The notes under the pieces: model-generated
What the model was told of the DNA's origin: nothing
Seen by the model: the letters and a program-made list of their open reading frames with translations, nothing else
Database searches by the model: none
NCBI GenBank assembly: GCA_902574205.1
Contig: CACGMS010000009.1
Location: forward strand, 1 to 44,459
Length of the DNA: 44,459 bases
Reading direction: 5' to 3'
DNA from: an uncultured Candidatus Hydrogenedens sp.
GTDB taxonomy: Bacteria > Myxococcota > UBA4151
Shown here: in pieces, positions 17,697 through 25,531 of the stretch
How positions within the stretch are numbered: the first letter of the stretch is position 1
Layout of the letters: each line of letters begins with the position of its first letter
Made by a program: the position numbers and the translations under genes

Positions 17697-17972
17697 ATGC
17701 TCACTCTTAGTCGCCGAGAAGGCCACGCAATCCGTATCGGTGATTCAATTCGAATCGTCGTTTCCGAGATTCGTGGTAATACGGTGCGCATCGGTATTGA
17801 AGCACCAAGAGAGTTGCAGGTTTTTCGTGAAGAGTTATGGCTGAAGATTCAAGAGGAGAACCGTGCAGCTGCTGAAGGACCTGACCGCGAAGGGCTTGAT
17901 GCCTTCTTGGATACTTTCAGCATAAGCAGCGCAGACGATGATCATGGCAGAAGCGGAACCGAAGATGAGTGA
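17697..17972 (+). CDS. csrA: RNA-binding translational regulator CsrA
   Basis: CsrA dimers bind GGA motifs in mRNA leaders, usually in hairpin loops and at ribosome-binding sites, and block translation. Residues 1-58 are a canonical CsrA core: MLTLSRREGHAIRIGD, VRIGIEAPRELQVFREEL. An extra acidic tail of about 30 residues follows (DTFSISSADDDHGRSG...), making it 91 residues versus 61-75 in most homologues. No GGA-rich Shine-Dalgarno sequence is visible before its ATG, so GGA-type autorepression is not obvious. It sits directly upstream of fliW and overlaps it, between flgL and the first flagellin gene, the classic placement for flagellin control. Confidence 0.96.
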   Translation: MLTLSRREGHAIRIGDSIRIVVSEIRGNTVRIGIEAPRELQVFREELWLKIQEENRAAAEGPDREGLDAFLDTFSISSADDDHGRSGTEDE

Positions 17973-18411
17973 AACTCTTTGCTTTACCAATAATCGGTTG
18001 GGCGAAATTGAGGTTGAGTCCGATGCAATTCTGAATTTTCCTGCCGGGATTTTAGGTTTTTCCGAATGTCGTCGATTCGCTCTTTTGCCTCATCGACCAG
18101 GGACTCCATTCTTTTGGTTGGTACCGGTTGATCGGCAAGATATTGCTTTTGTGGTGGTCAATCCTGAGAACTTCTTCCCTGATTATTGCCCGAACCTGAC
18201 TCAGGACCAGTTGGCACCGTTAGCACTCGAACCGAATCAGGACCACAGCTTAGGTATGCTCGTTGTGGTCAGCTTTCGTGAAGGCAAACCCACAGCCAAT
18301 CTAAGAGCGCCATTAATTTTGGATTTACCCCACAGAAGAGCGGTGCAAGCGGTTCAAATCGGCCGTGAATTCGAGACACAAGCACCGCTTTTTCAGGCAT
18401 CTAGCAAATAA
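17965..18411 (+). CDS. fliW: Flagellin-binding CsrA antagonist FliW
   Basis: FliW binds either flagellin or CsrA; free flagellin titrates FliW away, releasing CsrA to repress flagellin translation. The product has the family features LGEIEVESDAILNFPAGILGFSECRRFALLP, then PFFWLVPVDRQDIAFVVVNP and the C-terminal NLRAPLILDLPHRRAVQAVQ. The ORF track starts at ATG 17938; ATG 17965, which overlaps the csrA stop by 8 bases, gives MSETLCFTNNRLGEIEV and 148 residues, the usual length. ATG 17944 is another option. The overlap implies coupled synthesis of CsrA and its antagonist. Confidence 0.93.
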   Translation: MSETLCFTNNRLGEIEVESDAILNFPAGILGFSECRRFALLPHRPGTPFFWLVPVDRQDIAFVVVNPENFFPDYCPNLTQDQLAPLALEPNQDHSLGMLVVVSFREGKPTANLRAPLILDLPHRRAVQAVQIGREFETQAPLFQASSK

Positions 18412-18460: not shown

Positions 18461-18498
18461 GGAAGGCAAGGATGCTTTCCAGGCGGACACGGATGTCC
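18461..18498 (+). promoter_or_regulatory. Tandem GGA-loop hairpins in fla1 leader (putative CsrA sites)
   Basis: Two adjacent hairpins precede the fla1 start. The first, 18461-18480, is GGAAGGC / GCTTTCC (7 bp, one G-U) with loop AAGGAT. The second, 18485-18498, is GGACA-CGGA-TGTCC (5 bp). Both present GGA in the loop, and ACA-CGGA-TGT closely matches the published CsrA consensus RUACARGGAUGU. A GGAG ribosome-binding site at 18501-18504 follows. The pairings are seen in the sequence; CsrA binding is inferred. Confidence 0.65.
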
Positions 18499-18512: not shown

Positions 18513-19343
18513 ATGTCTTTAGTCGTCCACCATAATGTGGCGGCGCGCTTTGCCCGTTTGCACCTGGATAGAGCCCAGGAAGCGATTCAAAGCAGCACCG
18601 ATCGAATGAGCTCGGGATACCGGCTCAATCGAGCAGCAGACGACACCACTGCCTTTGCTATGTCCATGCGCTTTGGTTCCGATTTGGTCGGGCTTGAAAC
18701 CGTCAATCGCAACGCTCGAAATGGGATGAACTTGATTGGTGCTATGGAAAGCACCAGCGGCGAGATCCTTCGTGTACTCAATCGGATGCGAGAGCTTGCG
18801 ACCAAGAATGCGACGGAGACCATGACGCCTACGGATCGCACTGAGGCGCAGATTGAATTTGTGGCGTTGCAGGATGAAATTCAGCGTTTAGCTCAAACAA
18901 CGCACATGAACCGAGTACAGGGGCTGGCAGTCTCCGACACGATGACCTTCCAGGTTGGTGCGGGCGGCGGCGCCGCTAACCAAGTGGTCTTGTCGTTGCG
19001 CTCGATGACGTTAAACGCTCTTTCTATTGGACCGGGTAACGCAGACATCAATCTCATGAGTCACGCTCAAGACGCCTTGAACAAGATTGACACGGCGTTG
19101 TCTCGTTTGAATACTCGTCGTTCGCAGATGGCCGCAACGTTTACACAACTCAATGCCGCATTTGAAGTGACTGCTGGTGATCGCGAGGCATTGCTCAATA
19201 CATTAAACGTGATTCGTGATACGGATTATGCGGTGGAGTCGACCAACTTGGCGCAAAATCAAATCCGATCTCAGGCTGCCGTGAGCATTTTGAGTCAAGC
19301 CAACACGATTCCGCAGCTCGCGCTGCAGTTGTTGCAGGCATAG
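18513..19343 (+). CDS. Flagellin (divergent copy, fla1)
   Basis: Filament subunit. The ORF track starts at TTG 18450; ATG 18513 gives the flagellin N-terminus MSLVVHHNVAARFARLHLD and follows GGAG by 8 bases. The D0/D1 region has the STDRMSSGYRLNRAADDTTAFAMS pattern and the C-terminus VSILSQANTIPQLALQLL. The product is 276 residues with no D2/D3 outer domain. It is clearly different from the three flagellins downstream: ADDTTAFAMSMRF replaces the usual ADDAAGLA, and the N-terminal residues differ. Its place between fliW and fliD suggests it is a distinct filament segment or a minor subunit. Confidence 0.93.
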   Translation: MSLVVHHNVAARFARLHLDRAQEAIQSSTDRMSSGYRLNRAADDTTAFAMSMRFGSDLVGLETVNRNARNGMNLIGAMESTSGEILRVLNRMRELATKNATETMTPTDRTEAQIEFVALQDEIQRLAQTTHMNRVQGLAVSDTMTFQVGAGGGAANQVVLSLRSMTLNALSIGPGNADINLMSHAQDALNKIDTALSRLNTRRSQMAATFTQLNAAFEVTAGDREALLNTLNVIRDTDYAVESTNLAQNQIRSQAAVSILSQANTIPQLALQLLQA

Positions 19344-21110: not shown

Positions 21111-21382
21111 CCCGCCCAGAAAACGCCGAGCAAGGATGCGACGCGTAGACCCATCAAGGAGGATAATGGTCATGCACAACAGCACATAGGGACTTACTCA
21201 TCCCAAGCCCAACCCAGGTAGAGGGCTTCTAAACACCGCCTGGACAACCTTTGTTTCGTAATGCCTCAGTGGACCAATCTTGGACCGAACAGGCAGAATT
21301 TACTCTGAGCTCAGGGACGAGCTCTTTCAACTCGGCGGTCTTTGGAAAGAGTCCGCCGGCCATGTCAATCAAGGAGGATACC
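21111..21382 (+). promoter_or_regulatory. fla2 leader with three GGA-loop hairpins
   Basis: This is a 272-base gap in an otherwise packed cluster. At 21148-21171 a 6-bp stem with one bulge (GAC-C-CAT / ATGGTC) encloses loop CAAGGAGGATA. At 21307-21324 a perfect GAGCTC / GAGCTC stem encloses AGGGAC. At 21333-21358 a CGGCGG / CCGCCG stem continues into CTT-TGGA-AAG. The gene's own ribosome-binding site, AAGGAGG at 21371-21377, also contains GGA. The 13-base string ATCAAGGAGGATA occurs twice here (21153-21165 and 21368-21380). These resemble a CsrA-regulated leader. No terminator follows fliS, so the region may be read through or have its own promoter, which I could not identify. Confidence 0.6.
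21166..21189 (+). CDS. Possible 7-codon leader peptide in fla2 leader
   Basis: ATG 21166 follows a perfect AAGGAGG ribosome-binding site identical in context to those of fla2 and fla3, and reads MVMHNST before TAG. Either it is a translated leader peptide, or the Shine-Dalgarno copy serves only as a CsrA-binding loop. The sequence alone does not decide. Confidence 0.25.
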   Translation: MVMHNST

Positions 21383-22210
21383 ATGGCCATCACTGTACGC
21401 AGTAACCCGCAATCGATTTTCTCTCAAACCCGACTGACGCGCACCAGCCGCGCTTTGGAAAAGACGTTCAATCGCCTCTCTAGTGGCAGTCGAATCAACA
21501 CCGCAGCCGATGATGCTGCAGGGTTGGCTATTTCGACCCGCCTTGAGCACCGCATTAAAGGTCAAGGCGCAGCCAAGCAAAATGCTCAAGAGGGTATTAG
21601 TTTCATTCAAACCCTTGAGGGCGGTGTCGAGCAGATTCTCGATATGTTGCACCGTCTACGCGAACTCGGTGTTCGTGCAGCTAATGAAACCTTAACGAAT
21701 ACGGATCGAGATGCTTTGGATCTCGAATTCCAGCAGTTGTTGACCGAGGTCGACCGTGTCGGTTTGGCAACGACTTTCAACGGTGGTCCCGATTTGCAGG
21801 GTTCACTGACCATGACCTTCCAGGTTGGTTTTTCCAATACCACCAATGATCGTGTGTCGTTGACTCAAACTTCGGGTCTTTCGCTAGACGCGTTGAACAT
21901 TATTGGTGCGGATGTCCAATCGATTGGTAACGCAGCAAACGCTTTAGGTAACATTAGTTTGGCGCTGAGCCACTTGAATGCCTACCGCTCCCGACTCGGC
22001 GCAACTCAGAACCGGCTCGAGCGAGCCATTTCAAACCTTGAAGCTGATATCGAAAACGCAACGGCGGCAAACAGTCGAATTCGCGATGTCGACTTTGCCG
22101 AAGAGACCAGTAAGCTGACGAGACTTCAAATTCTAAGTCAAAGCGGAACAGCTGTACTGACACAAGCCAACGCCATGCCGCAGGCAGCGCTCGCCTTACT
22201 GGGCGGATGA
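21383..22210 (+). CDS. Flagellin (fla2)
   Basis: Filament subunit of 275 residues, with D0/D1 domains only. The ORF track start at 21251 is spurious; ATG 21383 follows AAGGAGG and gives MAITVRSNPQSIFSQTRLTR. Conserved elements are LSSGSRINTAADDAAGLAIST near the N-terminus and NRLERAISNLEADIENATAANSRIRDVDFAEETSK followed by LTQANAMPQAALALLG at the C-terminus. It is first of a run of three similar flagellins. The absence of an outer domain predicts a thin filament in which surface loops of D1 would carry any glycans. Confidence 0.95.
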   Translation: MAITVRSNPQSIFSQTRLTRTSRALEKTFNRLSSGSRINTAADDAAGLAISTRLEHRIKGQGAAKQNAQEGISFIQTLEGGVEQILDMLHRLRELGVRAANETLTNTDRDALDLEFQQLLTEVDRVGLATTFNGGPDLQGSLTMTFQVGFSNTTNDRVSLTQTSGLSLDALNIIGADVQSIGNAANALGNISLALSHLNAYRSRLGATQNRLERAISNLEADIENATAANSRIRDVDFAEETSKLTRLQILSQSGTAVLTQANAMPQAALALLGG

Positions 22211-22682
22211 TCGGTGGGCTTATTATGAACAAAATAACGATCGCAAATAATCGAGGATCACCTGGGCGTGCACCACCTGCACGTAGCCGAGGACCAACCA
22301 ACTACACTGAGTTTGTACGCCATTGGTTCTGGCATCTAGGTCGACGAAGCAAACGAACTTGGGGACGCCATCCATCGCGGGCCGGTCCCGTAAGCACCCG
22401 AGTGAGAACGCAACGTCAAAAAGCTCACTACTGGATTCCCCCGGAGCTTGCCGAAGCGGTGAATGCTCCGACCATCAGGAACCGTCATGGGCCGAACGCA
22501 ACCAGGGATGGGCCGACTTCAGGTCGAGCCCCACCCCGATCAACGGGCCCTCCTTAGCTGGAGGGATTCCCTTGGAGGGAAACGGAAGGAAGAAGAGTTA
22601 ATCGCTAAATTTTGGGGACAAGGAAGTCCCTATCGCCGGCTGATGAACCATTCATCAGCCACTAGCCATCAAGGAGGATATT
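22211..22682 (+). promoter_or_regulatory. 472-base fla3 leader with GGA-loop hairpins and a 10-bp stem
   Basis: No supported gene lies here; the listed ORFs (22207-22557, 22323-22601, 22463-22699) lack ribosome-binding sites and look random. Visible structures: CGTGCA-CCACC-TGCACG (22267-22283); CCCTCC-TTAGCT-GGAGGG (22548-22565), mutually exclusive with TTCCC-TTGGA-GGGAA (22567-22581) only if extended; GGGAC-AAGGAA-GTCCC (22615-22630); and a perfect 10-bp stem GGCTGATGAA-CCA-TTCATCAGCC (22638-22660). The AAGGAGG ribosome-binding site is at 22671-22677. Two loops (TTGGA, AAGGAA) present GGA, as in CsrA targets. No T-rich terminator follows fla2. Confidence 0.6.
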
Positions 22683-23519
22683 ATGGCTATTGTAGTTAGA
22701 AGTAATCCGCAGTCGGTCTTTGCTCAAGTTCGATTGAATCGTAACTCAAACGCATTGCAAGATACGTTTCAAAAGCTCTCGACGGGCTCGCGTATCAACA
22801 ACGCAGGCGATGATGCCGCTGGGCTCGCAGTCTCGACACAGCTCGAGCACCGAATCCGTGGCCAGTCTGCTGCGAAGCAAAATGCGCTCGAAGGCATCAG
22901 CATGATCCAAACTGCTGAAGGCGGCGTCGAGCAGGTTCGGTCTATGCTCGATCGAATGCGTGAACTCGCTGTCCGATCCAGTAACGAAACTCTGAGTGCG
23001 TCGGATCGCTCGAATGCTCATCTCGAGTTTGTACAACTCAAGAATGAGATCACTCGAATCGGAAGTACCACATCGTACAACGGAAACAGCTTGTTGAGCA
23101 TCACGTCAGTTTTGACCTTTCAGGTCGGATTTAACGATAATGCCAATGATCGTATCACTGCGACCCTCACGGGTAACTTCAGGGTCAGTGCAGCGAATAG
23201 TATCATCGCTTTGACCAATGCTGAGATTGATACGGCTGCTTCAGCTCAAGGTGCGCTCGATCTGATCGATAATGCCCTGAGTCGGTTGAATGCCTACCGA
23301 TCAAAACTCGGGTCGGTACAGAATCGATTGGAGCGTGCGATCTCGAATCTTGAAGCAGATATTGAGAACGCTACGGCTTCGAATAGTCGAATTCGAGATG
23401 TGGATTTTGCGGAGGAGACATCCAAGATGACTCGTTTGCAGATCCTCATGCAAAGCGGCACGGCTGTGCTCACGCAAGCCAATGCCAGCCCTCAAGCCGC
23501 GTTGTCCCTTCTCGGGTAA
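22683..23519 (+). CDS. Flagellin (fla3)
   Basis: Filament subunit of 278 residues. It starts MAIVVRSNPQSVFAQVRLNR after a perfect AAGGAGG site. It has TGSRINNAGDDAAGLAVSTQLEHRI and the C-terminal NRLERAISNLEADIENATASNSRIRDVDFAEETSK block. From about residue 78 it is nearly identical in protein to fla4 over some 45 residues (GGVEQVRSMLDRMRELAVRSSNET...), while the codons differ at many third positions. That pattern indicates an older duplication held by selection rather than a recent copy. A strong terminator follows. Confidence 0.95.
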   Translation: MAIVVRSNPQSVFAQVRLNRNSNALQDTFQKLSTGSRINNAGDDAAGLAVSTQLEHRIRGQSAAKQNALEGISMIQTAEGGVEQVRSMLDRMRELAVRSSNETLSASDRSNAHLEFVQLKNEITRIGSTTSYNGNSLLSITSVLTFQVGFNDNANDRITATLTGNFRVSAANSIIALTNAEIDTAASAQGALDLIDNALSRLNAYRSKLGSVQNRLERAISNLEADIENATASNSRIRDVDFAEETSKMTRLQILMQSGTAVLTQANASPQAALSLLG

Positions 23520-23585: not shown

Positions 23586-23871
23586 AATGTGATGGAATTT
23601 GAATAGGTTCAATGTGTATCGGAGCAATTCGGCCGTCTTTTTAGGACGTTGTCTTGACTTTGCTTGTGATGCCCCTCACACTCTTCCTGAAGATCCAACT
23701 GTCCCCAGGCGACTTAGGAGGTATTTTTCGATCACGATTTAGCGCTGGCGAGCGCTCTTTCAAGCCGGGCATACGCATCTGTTGAGCTTCAGCCCTATGG
23801 ATCCTTGAAGACAACGAAACCATACAGAACGCTCTCAAAGGATATGAGAGCAAGCCATCCAAGGAGGAATC
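23586..23871 (+). promoter_or_regulatory. fla4 leader/promoter region with GGA-loop hairpin
   Basis: This region lies between the fla3 terminator and fla4 and should contain the fla4 promoter, though I find no convincing sigma-28, sigma-54 or sigma-70 match by eye. At 23831-23851 a perfect 7-bp hairpin GCTCTCA-AAGGATA-TGAGAGC carries GGA in its loop (AAGGAT as in the fla1 leader). It lies 9 bases before the AAGGAGG ribosome-binding site (23861-23867). A palindromic stem AGCGCT-GGCG-AGCGCT occurs near 23741-23756. The loop hairpin plus GGA-containing ribosome-binding site resembles the two-site CsrA arrangement described for the Bacillus hag leader. Confidence 0.65.
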
Positions 23872-24708
23872 ATGGCACTTGTAGTACGTAGTAACGTTCA
23901 GTCTGTTTTCGCTCAGAATCGCTTGAACGCAAGCCAGTCTCAGTTTGAAAACTCCCTCGCAAAGTTAGCTTCTGGTAGCCGCATCAATAAGGCTGCGGAT
24001 GACGCTGCTGGTCTAGCCGTTTCGACTACGCTCGAACACCGCATTAAGGCTCAGTCGGCTGCACGCCAGAACGCCCAAGAAGGCATCAGCCTCATCCAAA
24101 CCGCTGAAGGTGGCGTGGAGCAGGTTCGTTCGATGCTCGATCGTATGCGTGAACTCGCCGTTCGCTCGAGTAACGAAACGCTCAGCGCTTCAGATCGCTC
24201 CAACGCACACTTGGAATTTGATCAACTCAAAGATGAGATTGTTCGAATTTCAACGTCGACTTCCTACAACGGAAAGACGTTGTTGAATGCAAGTCTCATT
24301 GCCACATTCCAAGTGGGTCAGGATGATCAAGCGTCTAATCGTATTGAAGTGACGGTAACCGGTGACTTTTCGGTTAGTGGCGCGAACAGCATTATCAAGT
24401 TGACCAAAGCTGAAGTTGATACTGCCGCGTCGGCGCAGGCCGCACTTGATCTGATTGATAACGCGTTGAGTCGAGTCAACACGTATCGCTCGAAGCTGGG
24501 TTCGACTCAGAATCGACTTGAGCGTGCGATCTCGAACCTTGACGCTGATATCGAAAACGCAACCGCTGCAAACAGCCGCATCCGAGACGTCGATTTCGCG
24601 TCCGAAACGGCAGCGTTCACTCGGTCGCAGATCCTTATCCAGTCGGGTACAGCGATTTTGGCTCAGGCGAACAGTTCGCCGCAGGCTGCGCTGTCCTTGC
24701 TCGGTTAA
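23872..24708 (+). CDS. Flagellin (fla4)
   Basis: Filament subunit of 278 residues, starting MALVVRSNVQSVFAQNRLNASQSQFENSLAKLASGSRINKAADDAAGLAV. It ends NRLERAISNLDADIENATAANSRIRDVDFASETAAFTRSQILIQSGTAILAQANSSPQAALSLLG. It is the closest paralogue of fla3 and equally short. It is separately transcribed, judging by the upstream terminator, and may be co-transcribed with flaG 35 bases downstream up to the terminator at 25146. Confidence 0.95.
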   Translation: MALVVRSNVQSVFAQNRLNASQSQFENSLAKLASGSRINKAADDAAGLAVSTTLEHRIKAQSAARQNAQEGISLIQTAEGGVEQVRSMLDRMRELAVRSSNETLSASDRSNAHLEFDQLKDEIVRISTSTSYNGKTLLNASLIATFQVGQDDQASNRIEVTVTGDFSVSGANSIIKLTKAEVDTAASAQAALDLIDNALSRVNTYRSKLGSTQNRLERAISNLDADIENATAANSRIRDVDFASETAAFTRSQILIQSGTAILAQANSSPQAALSLLG

Positions 24709-25201: not shown

Positions 25202-25531
25202 ATGACACAGATAATGCCGAAAAATGACTATTTGTGCCGATTGCTGGAACTTAGTGATGCCATGCTAGCTGCCTTTAAGTCTGATGATGTCGATATGGCG
25301 AGCGCTCTTTATGAGGAGCGCGAACGATTCATGAACTCGGTGACTCCAAGTGACGAGCCAGCCCGTGACGGGTTGCTTGATCGGGTATTAGAACGCGATC
25401 AAGACGTCATAACCGCTGCCAACGTTCATCGCCAAAAGATGCTCGGTTCGGCCTCTCGTTTGAATGCGGTGCGAGGGTATTCGAGTGGTCTGCCGAGAAA
25501 ACTTGATGGTGGCGATTGGGGAAGCGGCTAA
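25202..25531 (+). CDS. FliT-like flagellar chaperone (tentative)
   Basis: The ORF track begins at 25058, inside flaG and before the terminator. ATG 25202, just after AGAGG, gives a 109-residue helical protein. LLELSDAMLAAFKSDDVDMASALYEERERFMNSV and LLDRVLERDQDVITAANVHRQKMLGS resemble the FliT pattern: an early helix with the er..ll region and a late ileRD helix. FliT is the chaperone for FliD and can act on transcriptional regulators. The position next to flagellin genes fits, but FliT is weakly conserved. It ends 43 bases before the preferred maf start. Confidence 0.6.
   Translation: MTQIMPKNDYLCRLLELSDAMLAAFKSDDVDMASALYEERERFMNSVTPSDEPARDGLLDRVLERDQDVITAANVHRQKMLGSASRLNAVRGYSSGLPRKLDGGDWGSG

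Follow-up and report, generated by a model that had tools for sequence, protein, structure and literature searches.

The leaders of four clustered flagellin genes in a Myxococcota genome very probably constitute the known CsrA-FliW flagellin homeostasis switch, with a two-site CsrA target on fla4. The window analysed, a stretch of 44,459 nucleotides, is contig 9 of a 2.0 Mb MAG (genome G000) that is ~60% complete. Its nearest relative, the Myxococcota MAG ANT-56 (taken to be G001, 3.0 Mb; contig L003), is placed in the same genus by its kinship label and supplied the one close ortholog on which all ortholog comparisons rest. Observed directly were the sequence, its predicted folds, ortholog conservation and the presence of CsrA and FliW with their key residues. 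The cluster runs flgK, flgL, csrA, fliW, fla1, fliD, fliS, an orphan leader, fla2, a small Arg-rich ORF, fla3, fla4, flaG and a long ORF at 25464 (Table 1). The names of flgK, flgL and the long ORF, which is treated as a Maf-like protein, come from inspection and from where their orthologs lie rather than from a family search. The Arg-rich ORF (116 aa, 22207-22557) gave no Pfam or NCBIfam match, and its C-terminal half (PPELA..TIRNR) is partly kept in ANT-56.

Hairpin 1 of the fla4 leader comprises the arm GCTCTCA (23831-23837), the loop AAGGATA (23838-23844) and the arm TGAGAGC (23845-23851), with all seven pairs Watson-Crick. Nine bases, AAGCCATCC, separate it from AAGGAGG (23861-23867), and the ATG lies at 23872. 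The sequence-only reading had described this perfect 7-bp stem, its loop and the AAGGAGG nine bases on, and the description is exact; its AAGGAT core common to the fla4 and first fla1 hairpins, within different surrounding bases, is likewise real, the two stems being unrelated. The predicted second hairpin places the SD AAGGAGG within or at the edge of its loop and takes the start codon into its stem. Hairpin 1 in ANT-56 reads GCTCTCA[AAGGATT]TGAGAGC, identical at 20 of 21 positions, and the single difference, a loop A to T, allows extra within-loop pairing. The 5' arm of hairpin 2 is not conserved there; an equivalent TTCC[AAGGA]GGAA fold forms. The two-site arrangement that had been likened to hag, a GGA-loop hairpin followed by a GGA at the SD, thus holds for fla4, with hairpin and loop kept in the ortholog. 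Interpretation of the fla4 hairpin as an intrinsic terminator was rejected, as no T run follows it on the + strand. Real-looking terminators are found after fla3 (23542) and flaG (25139).

Table 1. Features of the flagellin cluster, with window coordinates, strand and basis of assignment (CsrA sites are putative, folds predicted).
Feature	Position	Strand	Sequence or description	Basis
csrA	17697..17972	+	91 aa, C-terminal extension	Pfam CsrA 9.6e-22; NCBIfam csrA
fliW	17938..18411	+		Pfam FliW 1.9e-28
fla1 leader hairpin 1	18461..18480	+	GGAAGGC[AAGGAT]GCTTTCC	hairpin scan; identical in G001
fla1 leader hairpin 2	18485..18498	+	GGACA[CGGA]TGTCC	energy ranking, fold; identical in G001
fla1	18513..19343	+	flagellin, 276 aa, divergent	Pfam
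Orphan leader hairpin 1	21123..21146	+	ACGC..GC[AAGGAT]GC..GCGT, no flagellin attached	fold; conserved in L003
Orphan SD hairpin and ORF	21148..21189	+	GACC..AAGGAGG..GGTC and 7-codon ORF (MVMHNST, ATG 21166)	L003 comparison
fla2 leader hairpin 1	21333..21358	+	CGGCGGTCTTTGGAAAGAGTCCGCCG, GGA in loop	energy rank 3 of 978 GGA sites
fla2 SD hairpin	21359..21389	+	GGCCATG..AAGGAGG..CATGGCC	fold
fla2	21383..22210	+	flagellin, 275 aa	Pfam, translation
fla3 leader hairpin 1	22613..22632	+	TGGGGAC[AAGGAA]GTCCCTA	hairpin scan
fla3 spacer hairpin	22638..22660	+	GGCTGATGAA[CCA]TTCATCAGCC, without GGA	fold, L003 comparison
fla3 SD hairpin	22666..22688	+	GCCAT..AAGGAGG..ATGGC	fold
fla3	22683..23519	+	flagellin, 278 aa	Pfam
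fla4 hairpin 1	23831..23851	+	GCTCTCA[AAGGATA]TGAGAGC, putative upstream CsrA site (BS1-like)	hairpin scan, fold, ortholog
fla4 hairpin 2	23854..23876	+	GCCA-TCC[AAGGA]GGA..TGGC, putative SD-overlapping CsrA site (BS2-like)	MFE and centroid fold
fla4	23872..24708	+	flagellin, 278 aa	Pfam Flagellin_N/C

An AAGGAGG SD precedes fla2, fla3 and fla4, giving each a second GGA site that overlaps the SD; upstream of fla1 there are two GGA hairpins, and its SD (TGGAG) is weaker. From hairpin 1 to the ATG, two hairpins are predicted for the fla2, fla3, fla4 and orphan leaders and for their orthologs, with fold z-scores of -3.8, -4.5 and -2.5 for fla2, fla3 and fla4, respectively. Hairpin 1 is predicted to expose the GGA and hairpin 2 to carry the SD in or beside its loop. 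In the window copies of fla2-fla4, hairpin 2 would also pair the start codon (GCCAT...ATGGC). Spacer lengths differ among the flagellin leaders. Hairpin 1 of fla1 matched ANT-56 at 22/22 positions and that of fla3 at 16/16 (GGGACAAGGAAGTCCC), and the rest of each non-coding stretch, fla4 included, was 44-66% identical.

The imperfect fla2 hairpin 1 has a 1x1 mismatch interrupting its stem and UUGGA in its loop in the window. In ANT-56 the stem is a different one that folds alike, GGTGAC.GC[AAGGAC]GC.GTCACC, at nearly the same distance; 9 of the 26 bases are identical, yet the fold, GGA loop and position are kept. Compensatory stem changes across relatives, which had been proposed as a check, were found in part. 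Replacement of the fla2 stem with retention of the predicted fold is compensatory evidence, and it comes from fla2, not fla4. The two species have identical fla4 stems, with no compensatory change, so the comparison there is uninformative. The fla3 spacer hairpin, which follows the GGA hairpin and precedes the SD, shows several paired stem changes relative to ANT-56, with one mismatch there.

The frequency of these hairpins was compared with chance. AAGGAT alone occurs in the window at background level (20 found, 19.4 expected), and when ranked purely by folding energy the fla4 hairpin comes 37th of 978 GGA sites. Energy ranking of single GGA hairpins does not discriminate and was rejected as a criterion. 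A strict scan required AAGGA in a 5-8 nt loop closed by 7 or more base pairs and covered both strands, with 60 shuffles for reference. Three such hairpins were found in 44 kb, against a shuffle mean of 0.13 and a maximum of 1 across the 60. All three lie on the coding strand and only before flagellin starts, 45, 63 and 34 nt before the ATG of fla1, fla3 and fla4, respectively. By this count and placement, the fla4 hairpin exceeds chance as one of a set and in its position; its stability taken by itself does not set it apart. In the 3.0 Mb of G001 the pattern AAGGA-N12-40-AAGGAGGA matched only twice, at the leader of fla4 and at the orphan; G000 has one further match, on contig 2. No Rfam family matched the window above its gathering score.

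The proteins of the presumed switch are encoded next to one another, with fliW adjoining csrA and both within the flagellin gene cluster. CsrA of this genome retains the RNA-binding residues L4 and R44. CsrA proteins that bind FliW are recognized by a C-terminal extension, V/I51 and N55; FliW binding in C. jejuni depends on V51 and N55, and isoleucine is the usual replacement at position 51 (PMC7829508). The CsrA of both G000 and G001 is of this type, with 91 aa, the extension, I51 and N55. The product of the window fliW matched the FliW structures 5dmb, 5dmd and 5jak in the PDB. By analogy with the characterized systems, we infer CsrA binding, repression, FliW antagonism and feedback here. 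One side of the CsrA dimer would bind the AAGGAU loop of fla4 hairpin 1 and the other side the GGA in SD hairpin 2, and this bridging would hide the ribosome-binding site and start codon, leaving fla4 untranslated. FliW, from the neighbouring gene, would bind CsrA at I51/N55 and lift the brake during flagellin export, when FliW is free; flagellin not yet exported would take up FliW and bring the brake back on. The same arrangement, built on different stems, would govern fla1, fla2 and fla3. Since these leaders share it, one switch may set all four filament genes.

Flagellin leaders of other genomes were also surveyed. An ANGGA-loop hairpin with a stem of at least 5 bp was present in 30 of 116 leaders from many phyla (~2.6 expected from shuffles), at distances to the ATG that form two groups, 10-20 and 30-50 nt. 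It was commoner where csrA/fliW lay nearby (11/21 vs 19/95; Fisher p = 0.005), in counts that ignore relatedness and are uncorrected for kinship, leaders within a genus not being independent. FliW was not found in 8 of the 50 whole genomes searched, and their 20 leaders gave one hairpin hit, counted by eye. Many FliW-bearing genomes in the survey showed no leader hairpin meeting the strict criteria. These data bear on a rival account in which the hairpins, as part of highly expressed genes, simply stabilise the mRNA or provide ribosome standby structures, acting without CsrA. Flagellin transcripts are abundant, structure is common in them, and the extra fla3 hairpin, lacking GGA and with paired changes in its stem, would suit such a role. 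That account is nevertheless very unlikely, as it leaves unexplained why the ANGGA loop is constant, why the distances fall into two groups across many phyla and why csrA-fliW lies beside the flagellin genes.

The perfect 7-7-7 inverted repeat of fla4 has the typical shape of an operator and is conserved in the ortholog, and it could in principle be a DNA site bound by a dimeric transcription factor within the promoter region of the flagellin gene, with the loop letters incidental. We consider this highly improbable. The arms of fla1-fla4 share no sequence, whereas the AAGGA loop and its position before the SD are constant; an operator would conserve its arms, but those of fla2 are wholly changed between the species with the fold kept; and the fla4 repeat falls where the leader is expected, 21-41 nt upstream of the start codon. 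That a common AAGGAT fell by chance on a random 7-bp stem, or that the hairpins reflect shared ancestry of duplicated flagellin leaders, is scarcely credible: the background frequency of AAGGAT and the energy rank of the fla4 hairpin agree with it, but all three strict hits precede flagellins, the fla4 hairpin is nearly unchanged in the ortholog, and the differing stems indicate that the leaders are not copies of each other.

The CsrA-FliW switch is known from B. subtilis and C. jejuni, where CsrA blocks flagellin translation and FliW frees it with flagellin export (PMC7652899, PMC6529632, PMC4894983). The hag leader of B. subtilis carries two CsrA sites, BS1 (A51-A55) and BS2 (C75-G82) (PMC8523840). 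Similarities to our leaders include the flagellin mRNA target, one site upstream and one over the SD (PMC7652899, PMC8523840, PMC6529632), and the adjoining fliW and csrA. Differences include four clustered flagellin genes in a Myxococcota bacterium rather than one, csrA preceding fliW, the fla2-fla4 SD within a predicted hairpin that also pairs the start codon, and the two upstream GGA hairpins and weak SD of fla1. The flaA leader of C. jejuni has two ANGGA stem-loops, the second over the RBS, with compensatory changes that support the structure and FliW antagonising CsrA (PMC4894983). The predicted layout here is alike, although flaA has a 45-nt leader, one major flagellin and a different csrA/fliW context, and its binding and repression have been demonstrated, whereas those proposed here are predictions from sequence and fold. 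Predicted CsrA sites of C. difficile fliC, TGACAAGGATGT and CTAAGGAGGG (PMC8523840), have nearly the same letters as the window leaders, in a Firmicute with a single flagellin. For flaB1/flaB2 of T. denticola, one paper suggests CsrA sites near the SD, as a proposal and not as the outcome of a binding test, and reports a flgN-flgK-flgL-fliW-csrA cluster (PMC9481697); this organism also has several flagellins but, unlike the window bacterium, is a spirochaete.

No earlier report of FliW with flagellin control in Myxococcota was found in the open-access literature, where the search turned up work on Campylobacterota. On our reading, the known range of the CsrA-FliW brake would come to include a Myxococcota lineage and a cluster of four flagellin genes. 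As the leaders differ in hairpin strength and spacing, one can test whether a single CsrA/FliW pool determines the order of several flagellins or their ratio.

A further leader of the same kind has no flagellin behind it. Directly after fliS and before fla2, positions 21123-21189 hold a hairpin 1, an SD hairpin, ATGGTCATGCAC and a stop after seven codons. The SD part (21148-21177) is identical to ANT-56 at 29 of 30 bases. The ORF there has the same length (MVMHDTS; L003 about 1030-1090), and sequence beyond it is not conserved. Candidate explanations are a decoy, a short ORF or the remnant of a lost flagellin gene. We regard as rather doubtful the specific proposal that this leader is a CsrA decoy or a CsrA-gated 7-codon ORF within the switch, a built-in competitor RNA that would tune how strongly several flagellins are braked. 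In E. coli, CsrA is known to control iraD by way of a short upstream ORF (PMC5574718); that ORF overlaps the target start, whereas ~190 nt separate the orphan ORF from fla2. If true, the decoy reading would add an RNA arm to FliW-controlled CsrA, and the leader offers a way to examine joint action of an RNA decoy and FliW on CsrA.

Several minor observations were made. Consensus scans for sigma-70, sigma-28 and sigma-54 gave no outstanding promoter call at the flagellin genes; TTGACT-N17-CACACT near 23655, kept in ANT-56, is only suggestive of a promoter. The long fla4 leader also contains, at 23710-23760, a GCGCTGGCGAGCGC palindrome and an upstream AGGAGGT, both kept in ANT-56 and with no gene behind them. 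In a genome of the same family (G002, a 69% complete MAG), CsrA and FliW were not found although hairpins are present: a long flagellin of about 700 aa (L107 4575, G002:C75) is preceded by two of this type, CTGCTCC[AAGGAT]GGAGCGG and GATCTC[AAGGAA]GAGGTC. Elsewhere in the genome of the window, a further flagellin near alaS (L104 3275; G000:C3, about 30274) has a hairpin of this type too, CGGTTGC[ATGGAC]GCAACTG, before its start, and just upstream lies GCCGATAA, which resembles a sigma-28 -10 box.
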